Source of the DNA: Pseudolabrys sp.
Lineage (GTDB): Bacteria > Pseudomonadota > Alphaproteobacteria > Rhizobiales > Xanthobacteraceae
NCBI GenBank assembly: GCA_026125895.1
Contig: JAHCKG010000002.1
Location: 124,001 to 188,000, forward strand
Length of the DNA stretch: 64,000 bases
Direction: 5' to 3'
Each line of letters starts with the position of its first letter. Position 1 is the stretch's first letter. This document shows, one piece after another, positions 17,214 through 33,000 of the stretch. The translations under genes and the position numbers were made by a program. Below the pieces are notes generated by a model. That model saw only the letters and a list, made by a program, of their open reading frames with translations, had not been told where the DNA came from and ran no database searches.

Positions 17214-18257
17214 CTACTTATAGGCGTGCCGTTTGCCGGTGAAGTCCTCGATCTCGTAACCGTCTTCGCTGCGCTCGACGTAAGTCGGCCCGAGCGGCGA
17301 TTTGCCGTGGCCGCCGGGGATGTCGAGCACGTAAGACGGCTGGCACAGCCCCGACACGCGGCCGCGCAGGTCGCGCATCAGCCCCTGCCCGGTGGCGATG
17401 TCGGTGCGCAAATGCGACGTACCGGGCGCCAGATCGCCATGGTGCAGGTAATAGGGCTTGATGCGGTTCTCGACGCAGGCGCGCATCAGGTCGCGCATGG
17501 CATCGGGCGTGTCGTTGACGCCCTTGAGCAGCACCGACTGGCCGAGCAGCGGAATGCCGGCATCGGCCAGGCGCGCGCAGGCCTCGCGCGCCTCGCCGCC
17601 GAGCTCGCGGGCGTGGTTGACGTGAACGGCGACATAGACCGCCCTCTTTGACGCCTTCAACGCGCGGATGAGATCGGGCGTGATGCGCGACGGCTCGGCG
17701 ACCGGCATGCGCGTGTGGAGGCGCACCACCTTGACGTGGTCGATGGCGGAGATTTCCTGCATCACCGCGCGCAGGCGGCGCGGCGACAGGATGAGCGGAT
17801 CGCCGCCGGTGAGGATGACCTCCCAGATGCCGCTGTTGTCGCGGATGTAATCGAGCGCCGTCTTGAGCGCCTGCGGCGACAGCGCGTTCGGCTTGTCCGG
17901 GCCGACCATTTCGCGGCGGAAGCAGAAACGACAATAGACCGCGCAGACATGGGTCAGCTTGAGCAGCACGCGGTCGGGATACCGGTGCACGATGCCCTCG
18001 CGAGGCGAATGCTCGTCGTCGCCGATCGGATCGGCGAGCTCGTCAGGCCTCGTTTCGAGTTCGGCGGCGTCCGGCACGAACTGCCGCGCGATCGGATCGC
18101 TCGCGTCGTCGCGGTCGATCAGCGCGGCCAGCGCCGGCGGCAGCGCCACGGCATAACGCGCCGCGACCTTCTCCAGCGCGGCGCGCTCTTCCGGCGTGAC
18201 GAGACCGCTCTCGGCCAATTGCGTGATGCTTCGGAGTGTCTGAATTCGTGCATCCAT
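17214..18257 (-). CDS. epmB: EF-P beta-lysylation protein EpmB (lysine 2,3-aminomutase-like radical SAM)
   Basis: A 347-residue radical-SAM enzyme of the KamA/EpmB family. The iron-sulfur motif is Cys105-Cys109-Cys112 in CAVYCRFCFRR, followed by LTGGDPLILSPRRL (SAM-binding GGD) and the C-terminal SYVLDIPGGHGKSPLGP, which contributes to PLP/substrate binding. EpmB converts alpha-lysine to (R)-beta-lysine, which EpmA attaches to elongation factor P. It starts six bases after the epmA stop and lies beside efp, which favours EpmB over a catabolic aminomutase. Confidence 0.92.
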   Translation of the reverse strand: MDARIQTLRSITQLAESGLVTPEERAALEKVAARYAVALPPALAALIDRDDASDPIARQFVPDAAELETRPDELADPIGDDEHSPREGIVHRYPDRVLLKLTHVCAVYCRFCFRREMVGPDKPNALSPQALKTALDYIRDNSGIWEVILTGGDPLILSPRRLRAVMQEISAIDHVKVVRLHTRMPVAEPSRITPDLIRALKASKRAVYVAVHVNHARELGGEAREACARLADAGIPLLGQSVLLKGVNDTPDAMRDLMRACVENRIKPYYLHHGDLAPGTSHLRTDIATGQGLMRDLRGRVSGLCQPSYVLDIPGGHGKSPLGPTYVERSEDGYEIEDFTGKRHAYK

Positions 18258-18263
18258 GACTGT

Positions 18264-19307
18264 CTAATCCTGAACCGGCGTCCAGATCACCTGCTCGATA
18301 TGGTCGGCGCCGGAGGCCAGCATCGCCAGCCGTTCGAAGCCGAGCGCGATGCCGGAGGCCGGCGGCATTTGCGAAAGCGCTGCGAGGAAATCCTCGTCGA
18401 TCGGATAGCGTTCGCCGTGAATACGCTGCTTCTCGTCCATCGCCGCAATGAAGCGACGGCGCTGCTCGGCGGCATCCGTCAGTTCGGCGAAGGCATTACC
18501 GAGTTCGATGCCGCAGGCATAGATCTCGAAGCGCTCCGCGACTTTATCGCTGCCGGGCTTCGCCCGCGCCAGCGCCGCCTGCGGCAGTGGATATTCGTAA
18601 AGAATGGTGGCGGTTTCGTTGCCGAGATGCGGCTCGATCTTCTCGACCAGGATGCGGCTGAAGATGTCGCCCCAGTCGTCGTCGGAGCCGTAGGCAATGC
18701 CCTCCTGCGCCGCGGCCCGCGCCAGGCGCTCGCGGTCGCCCTCGCCGCCGCTGACGGTGTGCAGCAGATCGATGCCGGCATAGCGGGCGAAGGCTTCCGC
18801 CACGGTGAGCCGGTGCGGCGGCGCGAACGGGTCGATGGCGCGGCCGCGCCAGGAAAAGCGCGTCGCGCCGGTCGCGCGCGCGGCCTCGGCCAATAGGGCG
18901 GCGCAGTCGTCCATCAGCGCCTCGTAGGGCTCGCCCGCCCGGTACCACTCGATCATCGTGAATTCGGGGTGATGCAGCGGCCCGCGCTCACGGTTGCGGA
19001 ACACGCGGGCGAAATCGACGATCCGGGTCTCGCCGGCCGCCAGCAGCTTTTTGCAGGCGAATTCCGGCGAGGTGCGCAAATAGCGCGGTCGGCGGACCGT
19101 GTCGGGCCCGATCAGGTCGGTGGCGAAGGCATGCAGATGGGTCTCGTTGCCGGGCGAGACCTGGAGCGCCGCCGTTTCGACCTCGATGAAGCCCGCCTTG
19201 GCGAACCAGGCGCGCAAGGCGGCCATCACCCGGCCCCGGTTCAGAAGGTGGGGCCGGCGGGCAGCATGACGCCCTGGCAGCCAGAAAGTCGTTGTTTTTT
19301 CTACCAT
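18264..19307 (-). CDS. epmA: elongation factor P--(R)-beta-lysine ligase EpmA (GenX/PoxA)
   Basis: A 347-residue paralogue of the class II lysyl-tRNA synthetase catalytic domain without the anticodon-binding domain. Class II motifs are [20 protein letters not shown] (motif 2 region) and [12 protein letters not shown] (motif 3). The start region [20 protein letters not shown] is motif 1-like. It activates beta-lysine and ligates it to the conserved lysine of EF-P. It forms an operon with epmB and is divergent from efp, with 115 bases between the start codons. Confidence 0.94.
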
Positions 19308-19422
19308 TTACCGCTTCCGGGAATTCAGCCGGAAGGGCTGGCAATGCCCCAGAAGATCGCTATGGTGCGCCCCGAATCCGGCCCCGCATGCCGGGACCGC
19401 TCTATTTTCAAGGATCGCTACC

Positions 19423-19989
19423 GTGAAGGTCATCGCCAGCCAAGTTCGTAAGGGCAACATCCTGGATCTCGACGGCAAGCTCTACGTCGTCCTGAACGCC
19501 GAGAGCTTCCACCCCGGCAAGGGCACGCCCACCACCCAGATCGATATGCGCCGGATTTCGGACGGCGTGAAGACCCAGCAGCGCTACAAGACGACCGACC
19601 AGGTCGAGCGCGCCCACGTCGAAGAGGTCGAATATTCCTATCTCTACAACGACGCCGAAGGCTTCCACTTCATGAACGACGAGACCTACGATCAGGTCCA
19701 GGTGCAGGCCGACGTCATCGGCGATGCCGCGGCCTATTTGCAGGAAGGCATGAAGGTGAACCTGTCGATGCACGAAGGCATCGCCATCTCGATCGAGATC
19801 CCGCAAAAGGTCACGCTCGAAATCACCGAGACCGAGCCGGTCGTCAAGGGCCAGACGGCCTCGGGTTCGTTCAAGCCGGCGATCCTGTCGAACGGCGTGC
19901 GCACCATGGTGCCGACCCATATCGTCGCCGGCACCCGCGTCGTGGTGATGACCGCCGACGGCGCTTACGTCGAGCGCGCCAAAGACTGA
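19423..19989 (+). CDS. efp: translation elongation factor P
   Basis: A 188-residue EF-P, the usual length, with three beta-barrel domains. The modification loop is [13 protein letters not shown], with Lys33 at the position of E. coli Lys34. A lysine there agrees with the neighbouring EpmA/EpmB pathway rather than arginine rhamnosylation. Other motifs are [19 protein letters not shown] and the C-terminal [21 protein letters not shown] relieves ribosome stalling at polyproline stretches. Confidence 0.97.
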
Positions 19990-23246: not shown

Positions 23247-24524
23247 TCAGCCAAAAACATCCGCGGTGATGCCGGCGTACCAGTCGACCGACTCCTTGTA
23301 GTTCTGCCTGCGCAGCTCGGCCGCCTCGCCTTTCTGGCTGACGAAACTGTTGCTGGCCTTGATGACGCCGTCCTTGGCTTCGTAGCTGGCGCCGACCTTG
23401 ATGTTGTCGTCGGGCGCGATCAGGCTCCAGCAGGTGTTCGAATAACGCGCGGGGAAAGCGCGCGACTGCGTCAGCTCGGCGCGGATGTTCATCGCCGCGA
23501 CCTTGGCCTGGCTGTTGGCGGCAAAGGCCGACTTCGGCATCTCGCCGGCGATCGAGGCATCGCCGACGACGTAGATATTCGGATCGACGGTCGACTTCAT
23601 CGAGCCGGCGTCGATCGGGCAGTAGCCGGTGTTGTTCACCAGCGCCGCGTCGCGCGCGATCTTGCCGGCCATCTGCGCCGGAATGACGTTCACCAGCGCC
23701 GCCTTGTAGTCGGCAAGGTCGGTCTTGACCTCGCCCGTCTTGGCATCGACGCCCTTGATGCCGCCGTGCATCTTCGGGTCCTGCCACTCGATCATCCCGG
23801 GATAATGCGTTTCCCAGCCCTCGGCGAACACCCCCTGCTTGGAGAAAGTCGGCTTCGGATCGAGGATGACGATGCGCGACTTGGTGTGGCCCTTCGACTT
23901 GAGCACATGCGCGAACATCGAGGCGCGCTCGTAAGGCCCCGGCGGACAGCGATAGGGATTCGGCGGCGCGATCATGACGATCTGGTCGCCGTCCTGGAGC
24001 GCATTGAGCTTGCTGACAAGAAGCTGGGTCTGCGGCCCGGGCTTCCAGGCGTGCGGCATGATCTCGGCCGCCTCTTCCGAATAACCCGGCACGGAATCGA
24101 ACTTGATGTCGATGCCCGGCGCGACCAGTAGCCGGTCATAACCGATGCGGTTGCCGCCTTCGATCGTGACCTCCTTCTTGTCGCGATCGATCGCCGACGC
24201 CATGGCGTGAACGACGGTGACGCCGGACTGGCGCACCTTGTCGTAATTATGCGTCAACGAATTGTAGTCGCGGAAGCCGCCGACATAGAGATTGGAGAAG
24301 AAGCAGGTGGTGAAGGTCTTCGACGGCTCGATCAGCGTCACGTCGATGGCGCCGTTCGACTCTTTGGCGATATAGCGCGCGGCGGTGGCGCCGCCCGGGC
24401 CGCCGCCGATCACCACCACGCGCGGCTTGCCTTGCGCGAAAGCGGGCGCCGCCAGCGGCAGCGCCATGGCGGCCACCGATGCCCCGGCAAACAGGCCGAA
24501 CTTGCGACGTGTCAGGTCAGTCAT
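23247..24524 (-). CDS. soxF: SoxF, sulfide dehydrogenase flavoprotein (flavocytochrome c, FCSD)
   Basis: A 425-residue FAD protein from the ATG at 24524 (SD GAGGGGG). It has a twin-arginine signal (TRRKFGLFAGASVAAMALPL). The FAD-binding GGGPGGATAARY follows. Cys74 in FTTCFFSNLY matches the cysteine that binds FAD covalently in FCSD. Cys193 (YRCPPGPYERA) and Cys365 (SNTCWSLIAP) match the redox-active disulfide pair. It oxidises sulfide in the periplasm and passes electrons to the SoxE cytochrome encoded 14 bases upstream. It is the last gene of the soxCDEF group. Confidence 0.94.
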   Translation of the reverse strand: MTDLTRRKFGLFAGASVAAMALPLAAPAFAQGKPRVVVIGGGPGGATAARYIAKESNGAIDVTLIEPSKTFTTCFFSNLYVGGFRDYNSLTHNYDKVRQSGVTVVHAMASAIDRDKKEVTIEGGNRIGYDRLLVAPGIDIKFDSVPGYSEEAAEIMPHAWKPGPQTQLLVSKLNALQDGDQIVMIAPPNPYRCPPGPYERASMFAHVLKSKGHTKSRIVILDPKPTFSKQGVFAEGWETHYPGMIEWQDPKMHGGIKGVDAKTGEVKTDLADYKAALVNVIPAQMAGKIARDAALVNNTGYCPIDAGSMKSTVDPNIYVVGDASIAGEMPKSAFAANSQAKVAAMNIRAELTQSRAFPARYSNTCWSLIAPDDNIKVGASYEAKDGVIKASNSFVSQKGEAAELRRQNYKESVDWYAGITADVFG

Positions 24525-24538
24525 AGTCCACCCCCTCG

Positions 24539-24871
24539 TTATTGCGGCCTGGCGGCCGCGAAATAGGCAGCGAGCGCTGCGATGTCGTCGTCGTGCAGCC
24601 GGCCGGCGATGTTCTGCATGACCGGGTTGGGCAGCGATCCCGAGCGATACGCCTTGAGCACTTCGATGAAATGCGCTTGGTCGAGACCGTGAATAACGGG
24701 AATAGCGCTGTCCGCCTTGGCGGCGCCATGGCAGGTCGTGCATTCAGACGACAGATAACGGCCGAGTTCGACGTCACCGGCCCACGCGGCGCTCATCAGA
24801 ACGATGCCGATTGCGCCGCCCGACGCTCCTGTCACGATCGCGCGATAATGCTCATGCGCGGCACGACGCAT
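24539..24871 (-). CDS. soxE: SoxE, monohaem cytochrome c subunit of flavocytochrome c
   Basis: A 110-residue protein from the ATG at 24871 (SD GGGAGGCGAGGCG), with a signal peptide cut near AWAG. One haem site is present, CTTCH (Cys44, Cys47, His48). The C-terminal part (SLPNPVMQNIAGRLHDDDIA) supplies the Met ligand, as in the first domain of FccA. Some SoxE/FccA proteins carry two haems; this one has only one. It should accept electrons from SoxF. A longer frame beginning at 25075 has no coding features ahead of the signal peptide. Confidence 0.9.
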   Translation of the reverse strand: MRRAAHEHYRAIVTGASGGAIGIVLMSAAWAGDVELGRYLSSECTTCHGAAKADSAIPVIHGLDQAHFIEVLKAYRSGSLPNPVMQNIAGRLHDDDIAALAAYFAAARPQ

Positions 24872-24972
24872 CGCCTCGCCTCCCGGTCGCGTCGAGCTTG
24901 GCATGGCGCGCCATGCTGCCCTATTTCTTCTTGCTTGCAGCGCCCCGACAAAACGTCGCAGCGAATGGTATT

Positions 24973-25770
24973 CTATTCGACGCCGCTTTTGCGCGCAGTT
25001 GCGTCGTCCGGCGTGACGTCGATGACAGAAGCATGCCCCGTGATCTTCACCGGCGGCCGGCATTCCTTCATGCACGGGTTCTTGTTCCAGAACGCCTTCT
25101 CGGTGGTGTCGCGATCGTCTTCGTAGAAGCCGCCGGCGTTCGGCATCTTCACCTGGCTCCAGGTCTCCTTCGACAGCACGAACTTGTCGTCGACGATGTC
25201 GTTGAGGTTCAGCACGAAGGCGACGATGGCGTACAGCTCGTCATTGGTCAGCGACTGCGCGTCGCCGAACGGCATGGCACGGCGCACGTAATCGAACACG
25301 CTCGAGACGTAGGGGAAATAGGACCCCACGGTCTTGACCGGATCGTGCGTCGCCAGCGTGCCCTTGCCCTGCGCGAGCTGCGGCCAGCGCCCGGCGCTCT
25401 CGCCAAATTCGCCGTGGCAGGCGGCGCAGCGTTCCAGATACAGCGTCTCGCCGTCCTTCACCGAGCCTTTGCCCGGCGGCAGTCCCTGCCCGTCCGGCCG
25501 TACATCGATGTCCCAGCCGGCGATCTGCGCCGCCGTCGCCGGCGTGCCGATGCCGTAGTTCTGCGGCTTGGCGGTTTGGGCGAAGGCGGGTGCCGACAAC
25601 GTGAGCAGAACAACGATCGCAAGCAGCCTTACTCTCCGCTCGTCCCCGCGAAAGCGGGGACCCAGGAGCCATTTGCAATGCGCTTGAGTGTTCACCTCTG
25701 GATCCCCGCTTTCGCGGGGACGAGCGGAGTGCGGTGCGGCGCCACGGATTGCATCAACCCACCTCGACAT
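24973..25770 (-). CDS. soxD: SoxD, cytochrome c subunit of sulfane dehydrogenase SoxCD
   Basis: The haem domain has CAACH (Cys115, Cys118, His119), and the C-terminal part ends NPCMKECRPPVKITGHASVI, typical of alphaproteobacterial SoxD. It takes the electrons that SoxC removes from carrier-bound sulfur. The start is unusual. No ATG, GTG or TTG directly precedes the hydrophobic signal (RVRLLAIVVLLTLSAPAFAQ). The only well-placed start is the ATG at 25770, six bases after GGGGAGG and inside the end of soxC (17-base overlap). Translation then passes through a 94-base palindromic repeat before reaching the signal peptide, giving a 265-residue precursor with about 45 extra residues. Confidence 0.88.
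   Translation of the reverse strand: MSRWVDAIRGAAPHSARPRESGDPEVNTQAHCKWLLGPRFRGDERRVRLLAIVVLLTLSAPAFAQTAKPQNYGIGTPATAAQIAGWDIDVRPDGQGLPPGKGSVKDGETLYLERCAACHGEFGESAGRWPQLAQGKGTLATHDPVKTVGSYFPYVSSVFDYVRRAMPFGDAQSLTNDELYAIVAFVLNLNDIVDDKFVLSKETWSQVKMPNAGGFYEDDRDTTEKAFWNKNPCMKECRPPVKITGHASVIDVTPDDATARKSGVE
25635..25728. repeat. palindromic repetitive element inside the 5' end of soxD
   Basis: The left arm TCCGCTCGTCCCCGCGAAAG (continuing to 25664) and right arm (25698-25728) are near-perfect inverted copies of about 30 bases around a 32-base loop. Its translation in the soxD frame contains PRESGDPE and LGPRFRGDER, which are the typical translation products of a dispersed palindromic element of Rhizobiales. 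The reading frame of soxD is preserved. Confidence 0.85.
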
Positions 25771-27022
25771 TTTCGACCTCCCCGCTCGCTTTGACCGACC
25801 AGGTCTGAATGCCGTTGTTGTGATAGATCGAGTTGACGCCGCGAATGGCGCGCAGCTCGTCCTTGGTCGGCTGCACGTAGCCCGTCTCGTCCATCGCGCG
25901 CGATTGCAGGAGCAGCGGCTCGCCGTTCCATTCCGTCTCGACGTAAAAACGCACCAGCGACTTGTCGAGTACCGGGCCGTCGATCTTCGCGGTCTGCCAG
26001 TTGCGGCCGCCGTCGATCGAGACATCGACGCGCGAAACCTTGCCGCGGCCGGACCAAGCGAGCCCCGAGATCACGAGGAAGCCCTTGTTCTTGATCGGCG
26101 CCTGCGGCGACGGCGAGGTGATCACCGACTTGGCATCCATCACGAAGGTAAACTTGCGCGCTTTGCCGCTCGGCATCAGGTCGGTGTATTTCGACGTCTC
26201 TTCGCGCGTGTACCAGGGCTGATCGCCGACTTCGATACGGCGCAGCCACTTGATCCAGATGTTGCCCTGCCAGCCGGGCACGACGAGGCGCACCGGATAG
26301 CCCTGCTCGGGCCGCAGCATCTCGCCGTTCATGCGATAGGCGACGAGGCAATCGTCGAGCGCCTTTTCCAGCGGCAGCGAGCGGTCGAGGCCGGAGGAGT
26401 CGCCGCCCTCGACCAGCAGCCACTTGCCGTTCGGTTTGACGCCGGCTTGTTCGAGCAACAGCTTCAGCGGCACGCCGGTGTACATGACGCTGTGGATCAT
26501 GCCGTGGGTGTACTGGCAGCCGTTGAGTTGCGCGCCGCGCCACTCCATGCCGGAATTGGCGGCGCATTCGAGAAAGTAGATTCGGTTGACGCGCGGCAGC
26601 CGCTTGAGATCCTCAAGCGTGAAGATCAGCGGCTTGTCCACCAGGCCATGGATCATCAGGCGATAATCGTGCGGATCGACTTCGGCGATGCCGCCGTGAT
26701 GACGCTCGAAGCACAGGCCGTTCGGCGTGATGATGCCGTCGAGTTCGTGCAACGGCGTGAAGCTGACGGAGGATTCGCGGCTCGCGGTCAGCCATTGCAC
26801 GTCGCGGCGGATGACGTCTTTTTCGAATTTCGAGGGATGGCCGTAAGGCCGCACCGCGACGCCGTCGCCGAGCGATTTGGTCCACGGCGCGACATTGGGC
26901 GGCAGGTTTTTATCGTCGGCCCGGGCGGCACCCGCGGCACCCGCCGCGACAAGGCCGGCGGCTCCGGTCAGGAAACGACGCCGCGATGGACGCGGCGCGT
27001 CGGTTTTGTGGGTCATCGCCAT
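25754..27022 (-). CDS. soxC: SoxC, molybdenum subunit of sulfane dehydrogenase SoxCD
   Basis: A 422-residue protein of the sulfite oxidase family with a twin-arginine signal (PSRRRFLTGAAGLVAAGAAG). The molybdopterin domain has the Mo-binding cysteine in IYFLECAANSGMEW. The dimerisation domain is C-terminal (FTFVMDAKSVITSP onward, GLAWSGRGKVSRVDVSIDGG). With SoxD it oxidises the sulfane sulfur on SoxY, giving full oxidation of thiosulfate to sulfate without sulfur globules. The start is at 27022 or 27016. A candidate SoxR operator lies at 27079-27100. Confidence 0.95.
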   Translation of the reverse strand: MAMTHKTDAPRPSRRRFLTGAAGLVAAGAAGAARADDKNLPPNVAPWTKSLGDGVAVRPYGHPSKFEKDVIRRDVQWLTASRESSVSFTPLHELDGIITPNGLCFERHHGGIAEVDPHDYRLMIHGLVDKPLIFTLEDLKRLPRVNRIYFLECAANSGMEWRGAQLNGCQYTHGMIHSVMYTGVPLKLLLEQAGVKPNGKWLLVEGGDSSGLDRSLPLEKALDDCLVAYRMNGEMLRPEQGYPVRLVVPGWQGNIWIKWLRRIEVGDQPWYTREETSKYTDLMPSGKARKFTFVMDAKSVITSPSPQAPIKNKGFLVISGLAWSGRGKVSRVDVSIDGGRNWQTAKIDGPVLDKSLVRFYVETEWNGEPLLLQSRAMDETGYVQPTKDELRAIRGVNSIYHNNGIQTWSVKASGEVENVEVG

Positions 27023-27174: not shown

Positions 27175-28875
27175 TCAAACGCCGGAGATTTTCACACTGG
27201 TGTTCGGCGTGACACGGACGATCTTTTCCGCCGCGACATAACGCTCCACCAGGTCCCAGACCGGCGGGCCTTGCGTGCCTTCGTTGACGCTGGCCCAACC
27301 CGCTACCGTGTATTCCCGCGCCGGATCGATCGCCTGCCCGGACTTGAGCAGCGTCATGCCGGAGATGCGGCTGCCGATCGGTTTCGACACGTCGATCGTG
27401 TAGCCGAGCCCGCCGCAGCGCACCATGTCGCCGCCCTGCTGATAATACGGATCCGGATTGAACAGATTGTCGGCGACGTCCTCGAGCACGTCCTTGAGCC
27501 GCTGCCCCGTCATCGGCAGGCGATAGACCTGCGGATAGGTGATGGCGGTGGCGTTGTGGATGTCTTCGACAGTGATCGGCTGGCCCGGCAGCACGCTGGT
27601 GCCCCAGCGGAAGCCCGGCGACAGCGCGATCTCGGCGTCGCGCTCCTTCAAGAGCGCCGCGCAGATCAGGTCGTCGAAGGTGCCGTTGAAGTTGCCGCGC
27701 CGGTACAGGAGCGAATCCGCCTGGCCGACAACGCGCGACAGATCCTTGGCGTAGGGCGCCCGCGCCTTCTCGATTGCCGCGGTCATCGCCGCGTCCGGCT
27801 TGATGACGTCGGCAAACAGCGGGATGAGCTTGTAGCGGAAGCCCTTGACCGCCCCGCCAGTCCCGTTCTTTTGCACGTCGAGATCGAGCCGCGACAGGAA
27901 CTTGCCGTGGCTGCCCGAGGCGATCAGCAGCGTGTTGCCGACCTTGATCGCCTCCGGCAGCGCATCATGCGTATGGCCGGTGAGGATGACGTCGATGCCC
28001 TCGACGCGGGCCGCGAGCTTGCGATCGACGTCGAAGCCGTTGTGCGACAGCAGCACAACGAGTTGGGCGCCGGCCTTGCGCGCCTTCTCGACCTGGGCGC
28101 GGACGTCCTCCTCGCGGATGCCGAACGACCATTTCGGGATCATCCAGCGCGGATTGGCGACCGGCGTATAAGGAAACGCCTGGCCGAGCACGGCGATCTT
28201 GACGCCGCCGCGCTCGAACATCTTGAAGGCGTCGAACACCGGCTCGTTCCATTCGGTGTCACGGACGTTCAATGCGAGGAAGGCGAAGCCGAGTTTGTCG
28301 ACCAGTTCCTTCACCCGGTCTTCGCCATAGGTGAATTCCCAGTGGCCGGTCATGGCATCGGGTTTGAGGAGCGCCATGCAGTCGGCCATATCCTGGCCCT
28401 TCGACGCATTGGCGCCGAGCGAGCCCTGCCAGGTGTCGCCGCCGTCGAGCAGCAGCACCTTGTCGCCGCGCTCGGCACGGACATGGGCAACCGCCGTCGC
28501 GAGACGGTCGAGACCGCCGATCTTGCCGTAGCTCTTTGCCAGCGCCGTGAAATCCTGATCGGTGAGCGCGTAGGCGTCGGCCGTGCCCGGCGCGATGCCG
28601 AAGCGCTTGAGGAAATCCGCGCCGGTGACATGCGGCGGCTGGCCCTTGGCGTCGCCGACGCCGAGATTGACCGTCGGCTCGCGGAAGAACACCGGCATCA
28701 ACTGGCCGTGAATATCGGTGACGTGCAGCAGCGTGACGTTGCCGAGGGTCTCGAACTTGAGGAGTTCCTCCTGGGTCAGCTTCTGCTGGGCGAAGGCGCG
28801 GGTCAGCGAGCCGCCACCGGCCATCAGCGCGGCGGTCGCGGCGCTGACCTGGAGCATTTCACGGCGGGTGATCAT
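27175..28875 (-). CDS. soxB: SoxB, S-sulfosulfanyl-L-cysteine sulfohydrolase (thiosulfohydrolase)
   Basis: A 566-residue periplasmic enzyme with a twin-arginine-type signal (MITRREMLQVSAATAALMAG, cleaved near AFAQ). The metallophosphatase-like domain carries the di-manganese motifs LLHVTDIHGQL, LDGGDTWQGS, LLSHNGFDVD and TGHTHDA. The 5'-nucleotidase C-terminal domain follows. It hydrolyses the terminal sulfonate from SoxY-bound thiosulfate, releasing sulfate. It is transcribed toward soxC and divergent from a small secreted-protein gene at 29000. Confidence 0.96.
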   Translation of the reverse strand: MITRREMLQVSAATAALMAGGGSLTRAFAQQKLTQEELLKFETLGNVTLLHVTDIHGQLMPVFFREPTVNLGVGDAKGQPPHVTGADFLKRFGIAPGTADAYALTDQDFTALAKSYGKIGGLDRLATAVAHVRAERGDKVLLLDGGDTWQGSLGANASKGQDMADCMALLKPDAMTGHWEFTYGEDRVKELVDKLGFAFLALNVRDTEWNEPVFDAFKMFERGGVKIAVLGQAFPYTPVANPRWMIPKWSFGIREEDVRAQVEKARKAGAQLVVLLSHNGFDVDRKLAARVEGIDVILTGHTHDALPEAIKVGNTLLIASGSHGKFLSRLDLDVQKNGTGGAVKGFRYKLIPLFADVIKPDAAMTAAIEKARAPYAKDLSRVVGQADSLLYRRGNFNGTFDDLICAALLKERDAEIALSPGFRWGTSVLPGQPITVEDIHNATAITYPQVYRLPMTGQRLKDVLEDVADNLFNPDPYYQQGGDMVRCGGLGYTIDVSKPIGSRISGMTLLKSGQAIDPAREYTVAGWASVNEGTQGPPVWDLVERYVAAEKIVRVTPNTSVKISGV

Positions 28876-28999: not shown

Positions 29000-29218
29000 A
29001 TGAAGAAACTGATCGTTGCCGCCGTGACCACGGCGCTGATCGCCAGCATCGCGCCGGCGATGGCGGCCGGGAAGAAACATCACGGCAAGCGCACCCATCA
29101 CTACGTGACGCGCGACGGCTATTACAAACCCGGTATCCCGAAGCATGATCCGGGCCGCTACAGCAACCTGCCCGGCAAGGACGCCCAGTATTCGAAGGCC
29201 TACATCCGGGATCACTAA
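29000..29218 (+). CDS. small secreted basic protein inside the sox locus, unknown
   Basis: A 72-residue protein from the ATG at 29000, with a strong SD (GGAGGTGACC). The signal peptide is MKKLIVAAVTTALIASIAPA, cleaved near MAA. The mature part of about 49 residues is rich in His, Lys and Tyr (GKKHHGKRTHHYVTRDGYYK, GRYSNLPGKDAQYSKAY). No family is recognised. It lies on the opposite strand between soxB and soxXA and has its own strong terminator. The HH and HHY clusters might bind metal or haem, but that is a guess. Confidence 0.75.
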   Translation: MKKLIVAAVTTALIASIAPAMAAGKKHHGKRTHHYVTRDGYYKPGIPKHDPGRYSNLPGKDAQYSKAYIRDH

Positions 29219-29234
29219 ACCGACCATCGACTTT

Positions 29235-29266
29235 GAGGCCGCCGCTTCCCGGCGGCCTCCTTTTTT
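29235..29266 (+). terminator. strong intrinsic terminator after the small secreted gene
   Basis: A 9-bp stem GAGGCCGCC (29235-29243) / GGCGGCCTC (29251-29259) followed by CTTTTTT. It lies 16 bases after the stop codon and seven bases before the end of the convergent soxXA gene. Confidence 0.92.
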
Positions 29267-29273
29267 GCGGATG

Positions 29274-30542
29274 CTAGTGCCGGATACCCGGCACGCTCAG
29301 CTTCAAGCCTTCGTTCTGCGCGGCGAGATACAGTTCGAGATCGCCGTATTCCTTGGCATCCGGCGGCAGTTCGTCACCACGGATATTGACCGAGCACCAC
29401 TGGAAGCGCTGGCGGATGTCCCAGACCGTCTGCAGCGACGTGCGCCAGGTGGGGAAGTGGTCATACTGCCCCTTCGGCTCGCCCAGCCATTGCCCACGGA
29501 TCCAGTGGTTCGCCACCTTGTCGTGGCAATCCGTGCAAGCCATGTTGAGCTGACCGATCTTGCGCTTGGCAAGTTCGGCGCCGCGCTCGATCGCCGCCTT
29601 GGAGGCGGCGCTGGTGGTGTCGACGTTGATCGCCGCACCGTTCGCCAGATTGTGCAGATAGACCGACATCGCCCGGTTGGCGTCGGTTTCCATCAGCAGG
29701 TCAGCGCCGGTCGTGGCCTTGGCGTGACGAGTGATGAACTCCTCGACGCCGAGCACTTTGTCGAGGCGCGGCTCCCACTTCGGCATGGACGCGGCCCAGG
29801 TCTTGAACTCGGTCGCGGCGTTGGCGTGGCAGCTCTGGCACGACTTGCCGGTCGCGCCTTCCTTCTTCCAGAGCTCCTGCGCCGTGTCGATCGTCCACAT
29901 CGCCGGGTTCTCGATCGAATCAAGGTTGTCGCGCTTCTCGACCGGCGCGGGACGCTTCTCCGGATTGTCGACCTCGACCTTGAACACGGCCGGCTTCTTC
30001 AGCGTCTTGAGGAAGGCGACGATGTCCATGATCTCCGCGTCGGTGAACAGCTCATGGCTGCCCCACGGCGGCATCACCGTTTCCGGGTTATAGACGCGCG
30101 CGTCGTAGACGTAATTGAACAGCCACTCATCCTCGCGTCCGGCATTGCCGATCTCGGAGAGGTCGGGCGCGACGTTGCCCGGCTGGTCGGCATTGCCGGC
30201 CTGCCCCATCACGTGGCAGGCGAGGCAGGAGCCGCCGCGCGTGCGGTCGGCGACGAGCTTGGCGCCCTTGGCGGCGTCGCCCTCGGGCAGGCCCGCTATC
30301 TTGCGCGCCTCTTTCGGCGCCGGCGCCGTCGCCAGATGGCCAAGCGTGTTGTATTTCGAATAATCGCGGCTTGGCCATCCGGAATAGCGTTTCCACGGCC
30401 GCGCCGAGGCGTCGCCCTTCAATTCGAGCGGCGCCTCTTTCTTGGCCTGCGCGACGGCGGCGTCCGGCGCCAGCATCACGATGCCTGCCGCCATGGCCAC
30501 CACCGCGGCCGTACCGGCCGCCATCAACCCTGCCCGCTTCAT
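29274..30542 (-). CDS. soxXA: fused SoxX-SoxA cytochrome c (L-cysteine S-thiosulfotransferase)
   Basis: A 422-residue triple-haem protein from the ATG at 30542 (SD GGGAGGACAACAG), with an N-terminal signal or anchor (to about residue 32). Residues about 85-185 are a SoxX domain: haem site CLACH (Cys106, Cys109, His110), then NPETVMPPWG with the Met157 ligand and MDIVAFLKTLKKP. Residues about 205-422 are a dihaem SoxA: CQSCH (Cys235-His239), CTDCH (Cys336-His340), and the catalytic-type Cys383 in RFQWCSVNIRGDELP. SoxX and SoxA are normally separate chains; here one frame covers both with a short charged linker (NPEKRPAPVEKRDN). It joins thiosulfate to the SoxY cysteine. Confidence 0.94.
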   Translation of the reverse strand: MKRAGLMAAGTAAVVAMAAGIVMLAPDAAVAQAKKEAPLELKGDASARPWKRYSGWPSRDYSKYNTLGHLATAPAPKEARKIAGLPEGDAAKGAKLVADRTRGGSCLACHVMGQAGNADQPGNVAPDLSEIGNAGREDEWLFNYVYDARVYNPETVMPPWGSHELFTDAEIMDIVAFLKTLKKPAVFKVEVDNPEKRPAPVEKRDNLDSIENPAMWTIDTAQELWKKEGATGKSCQSCHANAATEFKTWAASMPKWEPRLDKVLGVEEFITRHAKATTGADLLMETDANRAMSVYLHNLANGAAINVDTTSAASKAAIERGAELAKRKIGQLNMACTDCHDKVANHWIRGQWLGEPKGQYDHFPTWRTSLQTVWDIRQRFQWCSVNIRGDELPPDAKEYGDLELYLAAQNEGLKLSVPGIRH

Positions 30543-30603: not shown

Positions 30604-30927
30604 TCAGGCTACTTCGATTTTCGATTCGGCTGTGGTCACGGTGCCGTCGTCGTCGGTCCACGAGAACTTGAACGTGCCGCTGGCCTCGACCTTGGCGTAG
30701 AATTGCAAATACGGATTGGCGGCGATCGCCGGCTCGAGCGTCGTCGAGAACACAGGCTTGCCGTCGAATTCGGCCACGAACTTGTTGATGATCTTGCGCG
30801 GGATGGTCTTGCCATCCTTATCCTTGCGCTGACCGGATTCCATGATGTGCGGCATCAGGGTCTTGATCTCGATGATCTCGCCCTTCTTGGCCGTCTTCGG
30901 CACTCGGATCTTCGGCGTGTCCGCCAT
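30604..30927 (-). CDS. soxZ: SoxZ, sulfur-carrier complex subunit
   Basis: A 107-residue immunoglobulin-like beta protein: MADTPKIRVPKTAKKGEIIE, TLMPHIMESGQRKD, then the FSWTDDDGTVTTAESKIEV end. All are typical of SoxZ. It forms the SoxYZ heterodimer in the periplasm and has no signal of its own, being co-exported with SoxY. It lies 27 bases after soxY. Confidence 0.95.
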   Translation of the reverse strand: MADTPKIRVPKTAKKGEIIEIKTLMPHIMESGQRKDKDGKTIPRKIINKFVAEFDGKPVFSTTLEPAIAANPYLQFYAKVEASGTFKFSWTDDDGTVTTAESKIEVA

Positions 30928-30954: not shown

Positions 30955-31410
30955 TCAGCCGCCGCAGCCGCCGATGGTGACCTTGACCAGCTTCGAGGCG
31001 GTATAGAACGCGCCCTTGGAGGTCTTGGCGGTCACCACAATGTTCTGCGTGGTGGCGAGACGGATACGGGTGGAGGCATCGGCCTTGCCCGACAGCGGCG
31101 TGAAATGGAACGTGGCGACGCCGGGGTTCGGGTTGCCCTCGGCAACGACCAGAACGTCGGTGACGTGATCGTCGGCGGTCATCGGCGAGTCGACCGAAAT
31201 CGACAGCGGCACGGTGTTGCCGTTTTCGGCGATTTCCGGCAGCTCGATGGAAATCTTGCCGTCGGTCGCGGCCTTGCCGCCCGTGAATTTGGCGATGTCG
31301 GCCTTGGCCGCCTCGGGCGTCGCCGACGCATCCCTGCCCCAGCCGATCACGGAAAGAGTCGCGCCGGCGGCGCCCAGCGCCAAAGCCGCACGACGAGAGA
31401 TTTGCTGCAT
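30955..31410 (-). CDS. soxY: SoxY, thiol sulfur-carrier protein
   Basis: A 151-residue protein with a twin-arginine-type signal (QISRRAALALGAAGATLSVI). It ends in the swinging-arm motif VTIGGCGG. The C-terminal Cys149 carries the sulfur intermediates of the Sox cycle. It is the first gene of the soxYZ-XA group, with a candidate SoxR operator 85 bases ahead of the start. Confidence 0.96.
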   Translation of the reverse strand: MQQISRRAALALGAAGATLSVIGWGRDASATPEAAKADIAKFTGGKAATDGKISIELPEIAENGNTVPLSISVDSPMTADDHVTDVLVVAEGNPNPGVATFHFTPLSGKADASTRIRLATTQNIVVTAKTSKGAFYTASKLVKVTIGGCGG

Positions 31411-31604: not shown

Positions 31605-32177
31605 TCAGCTCGGCTGCGATTTCAGAAAGTCGCGGAAGCTCTTGGTCTGATAGGCCTTGTCGCGCACAAACCGAAACATCGCGAGGAAATCGTCAGGCCG
31701 CAGATAGCCCGGAGCGCGCGCGACTTCCCGTTTCTGCGGTTCGCGCGCCTTCATCGCCCCGGTATCCTCATCGAAAAACTGGAAGGTCGGCGTGAAACGG
31801 ACGCCGTACTTCGCGGCCAACTCCTTTTCTGCCAATTCTTGACCGTCGAAATCCTTCACCTTGCGCGAGCCGATGATGTTGAGCTGCAGCACAACGAAAT
31901 TGGCTTTGATGTAGTCGGTAATGTCGCTGCGCGCGAAATTGACGAAATGCGTTTCCTTGCAATAGGGGCACCCCTTGAGCTCCCACATCACAACGAAGCG
32001 CTTGCCGGCCTTTCGGGCATCCTCGAGATCGTCCGGCAGCTCGAGGAAGCTTTCGAGAAACCACGGCTCCTTGTAGAGCCCGTCATCGGTCAGGATCGGC
32101 TCGGCGCCCGCGGGGCCGATGGCCAAGGCGGAGGCCGCCGCTGCGCCGAGCATCAAATGCCGCCGGGATATTGTCAT
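31605..32177 (-). CDS. soxW: SoxW, periplasmic thioredoxin of the sox cluster
   Basis: A 190-residue thioredoxin-fold protein from the ATG at 32177 (AAGG eight bases upstream). It has a twin-arginine-like signal (ISRRHLMLGAAAASALAIGP). The active site Cys70-Pro-Tyr-Cys73 lies in WELKGCPYCKETHFVNF, and the cis-Pro region is VRFTPTFQFFDE. SoxW is thought to keep the SoxY cysteine reduced, with electrons delivered across the membrane by SoxV (CcdA). It heads the soxW-YZ-XA strand and is divergent from an unknown exported protein. Confidence 0.9.
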   Translation of the reverse strand: MTISRRHLMLGAAAASALAIGPAGAEPILTDDGLYKEPWFLESFLELPDDLEDARKAGKRFVVMWELKGCPYCKETHFVNFARSDITDYIKANFVVLQLNIIGSRKVKDFDGQELAEKELAAKYGVRFTPTFQFFDEDTGAMKAREPQKREVARAPGYLRPDDFLAMFRFVRDKAYQTKSFRDFLKSQPS

Positions 32178-32211
32178 CGATTTCACCTTGTGCGCGGATT
32201 CCCCGCGCCTT

Positions 32212-32259: not shown

Positions 32260-33000
32260 ATGCTGATCAACTTTGCGCGCGTCGCGCTCCTCGTTCTCAC
32301 TTTGAGCCTGACGGCGTTCGCCGCATCCGCCGACGACTCGACCGGAGACTTGGCCGACTTCAATGCCGCGGTCGAGCGCGCCGCCTCGCACAACCGGGTC
32401 GCCGACGGCTACCTGCGCACCGGCAACACCGACCTCGCCTCGCTTGAGATCGACCGGCTTCGCGAGGCCTGGGCGGCGTTGACCGAACGCTTCGGCGGCA
32501 AGCGGCCGTCGGCGTTCAAGGACAGCCAGCTTTACACCACCACTTTGCTCAAGATCAGCACCAGCCTGGTCGCCGCCGACATGATGCTGCAAACCGGGCG
32601 CCTCGAGGCGGCGCGCGCCTCGCTAGAGGGCATCCGCACCGATCTCTACAAACTGCGCCAGTCCGCCGGCATCGTCGTGCTGGCCGACTGCGTGCGCGAC
32701 GCCAACGCCATCGCCGACAAGCTGATGGTCTACTACCGCGCGATCGACTGGGATAATGCGGGGCAACGTCAGGCGCTCGCCGATGGCGCCGCCGCCTACG
32801 TCAAGACCATGGACCGCTGCGACGGCATTGCCAGTCCAGCGATCCGCGACAATCCTGAATTCCGCCGGCTGGTCGATGGCGCGCGCGCCGGCATGGCCTT
32901 CATCCCCAAGGCCATCGAAACGCGCGACACCAACCTCCTACAGCGCGTGCTCAGCGAACTGCGCTCGTTCGACAATCTCTTGGCTTTCCGTTTCGGCTAA
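32260..33000 (+). CDS. uncharacterised exported helical protein next to soxW
   Basis: A 246-residue protein with a signal peptide (MLINFARVALLVLTLSLTAF, cleaved near ASADD). The mature part is almost entirely alpha-helical, for example NRVADGYLRTGNTDLASLEI, then KISTSLVAADMMLQTGRLEA and the C-terminal LLQRVLSELRSFDNLLAF. Two cysteines (LADCVRD and MDRCDG) could form a disulfide. There is no haem motif and no recognised family. It is divergent from soxW with a shared SoxR-like dyad. It converges on potI, the two stop codons overlapping in CTAA. Confidence 0.82.
   Translation: MLINFARVALLVLTLSLTAFAASADDSTGDLADFNAAVERAASHNRVADGYLRTGNTDLASLEIDRLREAWAALTERFGGKRPSAFKDSQLYTTTLLKISTSLVAADMMLQTGRLEAARASLEGIRTDLYKLRQSAGIVVLADCVRDANAIADKLMVYYRAIDWDNAGQRQALADGAAAYVKTMDRCDGIASPAIRDNPEFRRLVDGARAGMAFIPKAIETRDTNLLQRVLSELRSFDNLLAFRFG

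Follow-up and report, generated by a model that had tools for sequence, protein, structure and literature searches.

The window, by which we mean the whole 64,000-nucleotide stretch of Pseudolabrys sp. DNA analysed here, encodes a real fusion of SoxX and SoxA in one polypeptide. This soxXA is a confirmed, functional-looking gene, and the fresh point about it is a putative change of haem ligand: the fused family seems to hold haem 1 of SoxA by a histidine where most separate SoxA proteins have a cysteine. The fusion as such is already published, since fused SoxXA proteins are described in the available text of PMC8877833 and PMC11172852, and it cannot be counted as unheard-of.

A single frame for SoxX and SoxA

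The first-pass annotation had read the region as one triple-haem chain with SoxX ahead of SoxA, a reading that is partly supported by our results. Its coordinates hold. The strand had been left unstated; the gene lies on the minus strand and runs from 30542 (ATG) to 29274 (stop), 422 codons without an internal stop. A frame is also open on the plus strand over the same interval, but no support was found for a gene there. In an NCBIfam search with the window protein, the SoxX model TIGR04485 matches residues 103-181 (77.3 bits, cut-off 61) and the SoxA model TIGR04484 residues 213-421 (160.7 bits, cut-off 110), which confirms a single chain with X before A. The motifs and residues CLACH, Met157, CQSCH, CTDCH and Cys383 were found in the translation exactly where they had been placed (Table 1). 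The window protein thus shows what we require of a fused SoxXA: SoxX followed by SoxA in an uninterrupted frame, with three CxxCH motifs. A phmmer search of solved structures pairs residues 206-421 with the SoxA chain 1h31_A and residues 79-166 with the SoxX chain 1h31_B, and each SoxA or SoxX entry matched covers only one half of the protein.

Met157 aligns with ETVMP of 1h31_B, and all 40 fused proteins that were aligned keep it. Both cysteines and the histidine of the haem-1 motif are present in all 56 fused proteins of the SoxA alignment, as is Arg379. The same three residues of the haem-2 motif, and a cysteine in the column of Cys383, are found in 56/56 fused proteins and 82/82 separate SoxA rows.

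Table 1. Features of soxXA and of its surroundings in the window (residue numbers refer to the SoxXA protein).
Feature	Position	Strand	Basis or remark
soxXA	29274..30542	-	fused SoxX-SoxA, 422 aa, three c-haem motifs
N-terminal export signal, residues 1-32, end ...AVAQA	30447..30542	-	by eye
SoxX haem motif CLACH	30213..30227	-	residues 106-110
Met157 (in ETVMPPWG), expected distal ligand of SoxX haem	30072..30074	-	alignment
Joiner between domains, residues 184-198, PAVFKVEVDNPEKRP	29949..29993	-	separate SoxX ends
SoxA haem 1 motif CQSCH	29826..29840	-	residues 235-239
His273, position of SoxA haem-1 distal Cys	29724..29726	-	alignment
SoxA catalytic haem 2 motif CTDCH	29523..29537	-	residues 336-340
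Cys383 (in RFQWC), catalytic distal Cys of haem 2	29394..29396	-	alignment
Thioredoxin-like protein	31605..32186	-	PF13098
soxY, end GGCGG	30955..31410	-	TIGR04488 142 bits, cut-off 125
soxZ	30604..30927	-	TIGR04490 109.2 bits, cut-off 76
soxB	27175..28875	-	TIGR04486 853.2 bits, cut-off 550
soxC	25754..27022	-	TIGR04555 656.4 bits, cut-off 420
SoxD-like cytochrome, start uncertain	24973..26025	-	PF00034
Small cytochrome c, FccA-like by position, start uncertain	24539..25075	-	PF13442 21.3 bits, below cut-off 27
Flavocytochrome c sulfide dehydrogenase flavoprotein chain, start uncertain	23247..24743	-	PF21706, PF09242

Where do the two halves meet? The junction had been put at about residues 185-205, and separate SoxX proteins indeed end at the equivalent of about 182-183; those compared stop 0-6 residues past the equivalent of window residues 178-185, often with ...AYLxTLK. 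In main-clade fused proteins a joiner of about 15 residues follows. It is conserved from Pseudolabrys to Parabeggiatoa, and its residues P194 and R197 reach at least 90% conservation across 40 fused proteins. The residues that come after the joiner line up with the N-terminal part of SoxA (VEKRDNLDSIENPAM in the window protein, ETRAMQDDEFANPGM in the independent fusion L107). The peak hydropathy over 11 residues is 2.7 at the N terminus of the window protein, as against -0.04 within residues 184-211. Locus L112 (genome G933) displays an arrangement from which a SoxXA fusion could arise: the stop of soxX is followed, a few codons on and in the same frame, by the start of a soxA with its own signal peptide, whose hydropathy by the same measure peaks at 2.19. 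Because L112 has both this stop and the second signal peptide, and the window protein has neither, a fusion needs the loss of both. From these comparisons we infer the order of the fusion events and the export of both halves by one signal peptide.

Could two neighbouring genes have been joined by an assembly or sequencing error? Completeness of the window genome is 82% and contamination 5%, and elsewhere soxX and soxA can share a frame with only a few codons between them, L112 being an example. However, 56 distinct fused frames occur across many assemblies, and an error at the stop alone would leave an inner second signal peptide like that of L112, which the window protein lacks. One genome_contigs scan for further fused proteins, the search that the first-pass annotation had proposed, yielded 27 distinct loci (30 relatives among 51 pattern matches). 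All but one are full-length fusions free of stops, the exception, L028, being cut by a contig end; none of the 27 has a stop inside the match, which, to the extent that assemblies can tell, leaves no room for an overlooked frameshift or stop. Since 26 of the 27 loci are full-length and stop-free, we treat an assembly error as ruled out, its remaining chance being minute. Coincidence is likewise excluded, because both the SoxX and the SoxA model match (E <= 0.001) in 39 of 39 fused proteins scanned. Most of the 27 loci come from metagenome assemblies; that of Pseudolabrys sp. Root1462 (L027) is not labelled as one, and a complete plasmid of Indioceanicola profundi encodes a fusion with 53% identity to the window protein. 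In their best segments the fused loci are 65-82% identical to the window, except the gammaproteobacterial L025 (Candidatus Parabeggiatoa, genome G884), at about 51-52%. The window genome, 82% complete as it is, has no SoxA match besides the fused gene, which is also its sole SoxX match over the cut-off. Two weaker matches to the SoxX model lie elsewhere in this genome (36.7 and 23.1 bits), and one of these two recurs as the second match in other searches (24.1 bits); sub-threshold matches to this model also occur in 5 of 14 control genomes.

We counted genomes with a full-span fused frame among the matches listed, in samples that overlap and of which those for the window's family, order, class and phylum contain the window genome. 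The fusion occurs in at least 8 of 149 genomes of the family (97 with any match), at least 2 of 249 of the order (115 with any match), 2 of 385 of the class among the matches listed (70 with any match) and at least 1 of 398 of the phylum, namely the window genome itself (74 with any match). For the class of L025 the count is at least 7 of 369 (171 with any match), and for its order 22 of 42 among the matches listed (26 with any match). By these counts the fusion is rare generally, yet the rule in the order of L025, and it is not confined to Gammaproteobacteria. Separate SoxA proteins also occur in G014, G004, G037 and G068, which are four of the family's 8 fusion genomes, and in G275. The last of these, an alphaproteobacterium (loci L033 and L094), thus combines a fused SoxXA and a separate SoxA with a partial match to a photosynthetic reaction centre.

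Might the single chain be cut in the periplasm to give the usual heterodimer after all? Separate SoxA and SoxX are the rule by the order, class and phylum counts just given, and the joiner is rich in proline and charged residues. But joiner residues are conserved across two classes, no signal-peptide-like stretch lies in the joiner, and the segment aligned with the conserved N-terminal segment of SoxA begins directly after it. We consider cleavage improbable, and prefer a SoxXA that stays in one piece.

Histidine in place of the haem-1 cysteine

The SoxA half is dihaem, as had been claimed, but it is not an ordinary one: the position of the haem-1 distal cysteine is occupied by His273, which had been overlooked. 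Our SoxA alignment comprises 56 distinct fused domains (63 before seven duplicate rows were dropped), three solved chains and 82 separate rows, which contain duplicates (L096 and L101 are one gene); L052 is apparently misaligned locally at haem 1. In the residue-273 column, 53 of the 56 fused proteins carry His, and L106, L107 and L108 carry Cys. The separate rows divide into 76 with Cys, three with Ser, two with Glu and one with His, and all three solved chains have Cys. Another fused protein, L151, reads RHARATTG where the window has RHAKATTG. We take the cysteine of this column to be the distal ligand of haem 1 in solved dihaem SoxA structures. Because His273 aligns with it, we infer that haem 1 of the window clade is ligated by His239 and His273, not by a His/Cys pair.

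Is the histidine simply a consequence of being fused? This is ruled out: three of 56 fused proteins keep the cysteine and one of 82 separate rows has the histidine, so the residue marks a clade. Six separate dihaem SoxA proteins lack Cys in this column (L039, L041 and L073 have Ser, L043 and L060 have Glu, L071 has His), and their haem 1 may likewise be without a thiolate ligand. A further 18 separate rows, scored as having no haem-1 CxxCH, still hold the cysteine of the residue-273 column together with the motif's second cysteine. In S. novella SoxA a disulfide presumably stands in place of haem 1, which would suit the cysteine pair of these rows. Position 362 is His in 53/56 fused proteins and in 15/18 SoxA without haem 1, and in 0/64 separate rows with haem 1.

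His-bearing fused SoxXA proteins occur in giant sulfur bacteria and in several alphaproteobacteria. A bis-His haem is expected at a higher potential than a thiolate-ligated one. We give an even chance to the proposal that these proteins are a structural type of their own, a type-II-like SoxX tethered to a SoxA with a bis-His haem 1, and that this haem lies at a higher potential than its thiolate-ligated equivalent and could join in electron transfer. The active-site His/Cys centres of SoxAX are placed at or below -400 mV in the available text of PMC6879331, which does not address haem 1. No earlier report of His as a haem-1 ligand was found in the open-licence literature, covered partly through the best 20 matches listed.

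Origins of the fusion

Did SoxX and SoxA fuse only once? The SoxA tree, built by a quick method with SH-aLRT support only, contains 78 rows (29 of the 56 fused, 46 of the 82 separate and three PDB rows), among which L105 and 3oa8A sit on long branches. All 26 fused rows with the histidine, Parabeggiatoa L025 included, are set apart from the rest by a single branch (SH-aLRT 99), and by this quick method the window protein shares a clade with the Beggiatoaceae-type fusions. L107 and L108 fall inside the group of separate dihaem SoxA. A single clade of all 29 fused rows, set against the 49 others and named after the tree had been seen, was rejected by the AU test (p 0.00633), which rules out a single origin of all fusions. 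This rejection and the separate placement of L107 and L108 argue for at least two independent fusions. When these two are set aside, the 27 remaining fused rows come together with a support of 22, at which L106 may share the main fusion event. L107 (genome G1007) and L108 (G1202) represent a separately arisen fusion in which the haem-1 cysteine was kept.

The SoxX tree (25 fused and 80 separate rows, 105 in all, over 114 columns) was built by the same quick method with SH-aLRT only; L064 was omitted for its lack of CxxCH, and the solved SoxX chains are absent from it. Here all 22 His-bearing fused SoxX domains and L106 lie on the same side as 15 SoxX whose SoxA partners have no haem 1 (SH-aLRT 98), and L107 and L108 lie on the opposite side. 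Within their side they do not group as a single His-bearing clade, the long-branched L105 standing beside L118. As judged from these alignments and trees, the window clade pairs an apparently type-II-like SoxX domain with a dihaem SoxA domain. As the clade occurs in two classes, it may have spread by horizontal transfer.

The sox cluster, the proposed chemistry and known systems

On the minus strand the gene order is thioredoxin-like gene, soxY, soxZ, soxXA, a small convergent gene, soxB, soxC, SoxD-like cytochrome, small cytochrome and flavocytochrome flavoprotein. We take the thioredoxin-like protein to be SoxW/SoxS-like and the cytochrome next to soxC to be SoxD-like, in both cases by position; no SoxD model match to this cytochrome was found. 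We compared 24 alphaproteobacterial fused loci (26 less L025 and L032). soxZ is directly upstream of soxXA in all 24, soxY is present in 23 (L019 is cut), soxB follows downstream in 22 (L002 and L022 are cut) and soxC is found in 18. Four others are without soxC because the locus ends, and L015 and L017 show no soxC in the roughly 5 kb that follow soxXA. The order is XA-Y-Z-B-C in Indioceanicola and XA-Y-B in Parabeggiatoa, with no SoxC in the 10 kb examined of the latter. We read the window cluster as most probably encoding a complete Sox pathway.

The convergent gene between soxXA and soxB (29000-29218, plus strand) encodes a His-rich, secreted-looking protein of 72 residues without a Pfam match, and L003 (67%) and L027 (89%) have a homologue in the equivalent position; a GC-rich inverted repeat and a T run follow it at about 29238-29265, by eye. 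Divergent from the thioredoxin-like gene, at 32260-33000 on the plus strand, lies a gene for a 246-residue protein with a signal-like start and no Pfam match. Farther away, genes at 17214-19989 resemble an EF-P modification cluster, which we assume to be the usual epmB, epmA and efp. Between the window and Root1462 (L027:5001-6263), SoxXA is 76% identical and SoxY, SoxZ, SoxB and SoxC are 94-96% identical, with fourfold-site identities of 61% for soxXA and 72-80% for the other four genes; the thioredoxin-like gene gives 91% for the protein and 62% at fourfold sites. The soxXA allele may have been replaced by recombination in one lineage or the other.

Functionally, the most plausible reading is the usual SoxXA chemistry, carried out by a single chain. 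Taken as a whole, we hold it highly probable that the gene encodes an exported one-chain SoxXA, with a SoxX haem ligated by His110 and Met157 and a dihaem SoxA with a predicted bis-His haem 1, that performs Sox thiosulfate chemistry. This role is supported by the sox cluster, by the intact Cys383, Arg379 and CTDCH, and by the absence of any other SoxA match from the 82%-complete genome. The chain would be exported by its single signal peptide and receive three haems. By homology, thiosulfate would then be bound oxidatively to Cys383, which is the distal haem-2 ligand, before its transfer to the SoxY cysteine of SoxYZ, in the GGCGG end, while two electrons would pass from haem 2 through the tethered SoxX haem to a periplasmic carrier. 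SoxB would free sulfate, and SoxC with its cytochrome would oxidise the remaining sulfane sulfur. According to the available text of PMC4423706, Cys-thiolate conjugation has been proposed for SoxAX and is backed by work on TsdA, and a rival copper-based proposal exists. The first-pass annotation had seen in the fusion a means of bringing the SoxX haem beside the catalytic cysteine; this adds little, as in the separate heterodimer of R. sulfidophilum the SoxX haem and the catalytic haem are already only 10.7 A from each other, edge to edge (PMC4423706, available text). Because both domains already pack in the heterodimer, the tether would mainly fix their ratio and spare an assembly step. SoxAX takes the first step of Sox thiosulfate oxidation and is described as "highly recalcitrant" to mechanistic analysis (PMC4423706, available text). 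A SoxXA whose halves are locked 1:1 in one chain lends itself well to structural and kinetic work, and the natural Cys-to-His difference at haem 1 offers a ready comparison on the role of this haem.

Could the protein have drifted to another job, such as that of a TsdA-like thiosulfate dehydrogenase or of an electron carrier? SoxA and TsdA share a fold, and the haem-1 ligand position is changed. Against this, the gene lies in a sox cluster with SoxYZ, SoxB and SoxC, the protein passes the TIGR04484 cut-off and keeps the Arg/Cys set of SoxA, and TsdA chains match it only weakly (E about 4e-4); such a drift is very unlikely, and we retain the SoxXA assignment. Like the window protein, TsdA carries a Cys-ligated catalytic c-haem and an electron-transfer haem on one chain, but it makes tetrathionate and does not load SoxYZ (PMC4423706, available text).

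That SoxX and SoxA are separate proteins in characterised systems, as had been stated, stands only in part, for fusions are published for Beggiatoaceae and Halorhodospira. In 'Ca. Parabeggiatoa' and 'Ca. Albibeggiatoa', as in other Beggiatoaceae, SoxX and SoxA form one chain like that of the window, and MAG B3_G6, listed in the same paper, is the isolate name of L025 (PMC11172852, available text). The Parabeggiatoa Sox system lacks SoxCD, whereas the window cluster has SoxC and a SoxD-like cytochrome; haem ligands of these SoxAX proteins are not mentioned in the part of PMC11172852 available. Halorhodospira SoxXA has SoxX fused to the N terminus of a dihaem SoxA, giving a single triheme protein (PMC8877833, available text), and by this description resembles the window chain. 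Among seven genomes tested, no photosynthetic reaction centre was found in that of the window or in five gammaproteobacterial fusion genomes, and a partial one was found in G275. Identification of the gammaproteobacterial L104-L108 as Halorhodospira found no support, their five genomes, of unstated completeness, giving no reaction-centre match. Nor did a suspected SoxXA fusion in Hyphomicrobium denitrificans: the available text on this organism makes no mention of one and lists soxA under a separate locus tag. For Pseudolabrys or other alphaproteobacteria, no report of a fused SoxXA was found in the open-licence literature, covered partly through the best 20 matches listed.

How does the window protein compare with the solved heterodimers, of which we take 1h31 (R. 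sulfidophilum) and 2c1d (Paracoccus) to be type I SoxAX and 3oa8 (S. novella) type II? Like type I, it has a dihaem SoxA with a catalytic cysteine and a SoxX partner. Unlike type I, whose two chains have Cys at the haem-1 distal position and, we assume, a His/Cys-ligated haem 1, it is a single chain with His273 in that column, and in the SoxX tree its SoxX is placed away from the SoxX partners of SoxA proteins that bear haem 1 (SH-aLRT 98, 114 columns). With type II it shares the grouping of its SoxX (SH-aLRT 98) and the histidine at position 362, but type II consists of separate chains without haem 1, whereas the window protein carries CQSCH at residues 235-239 and joins both halves in one chain.
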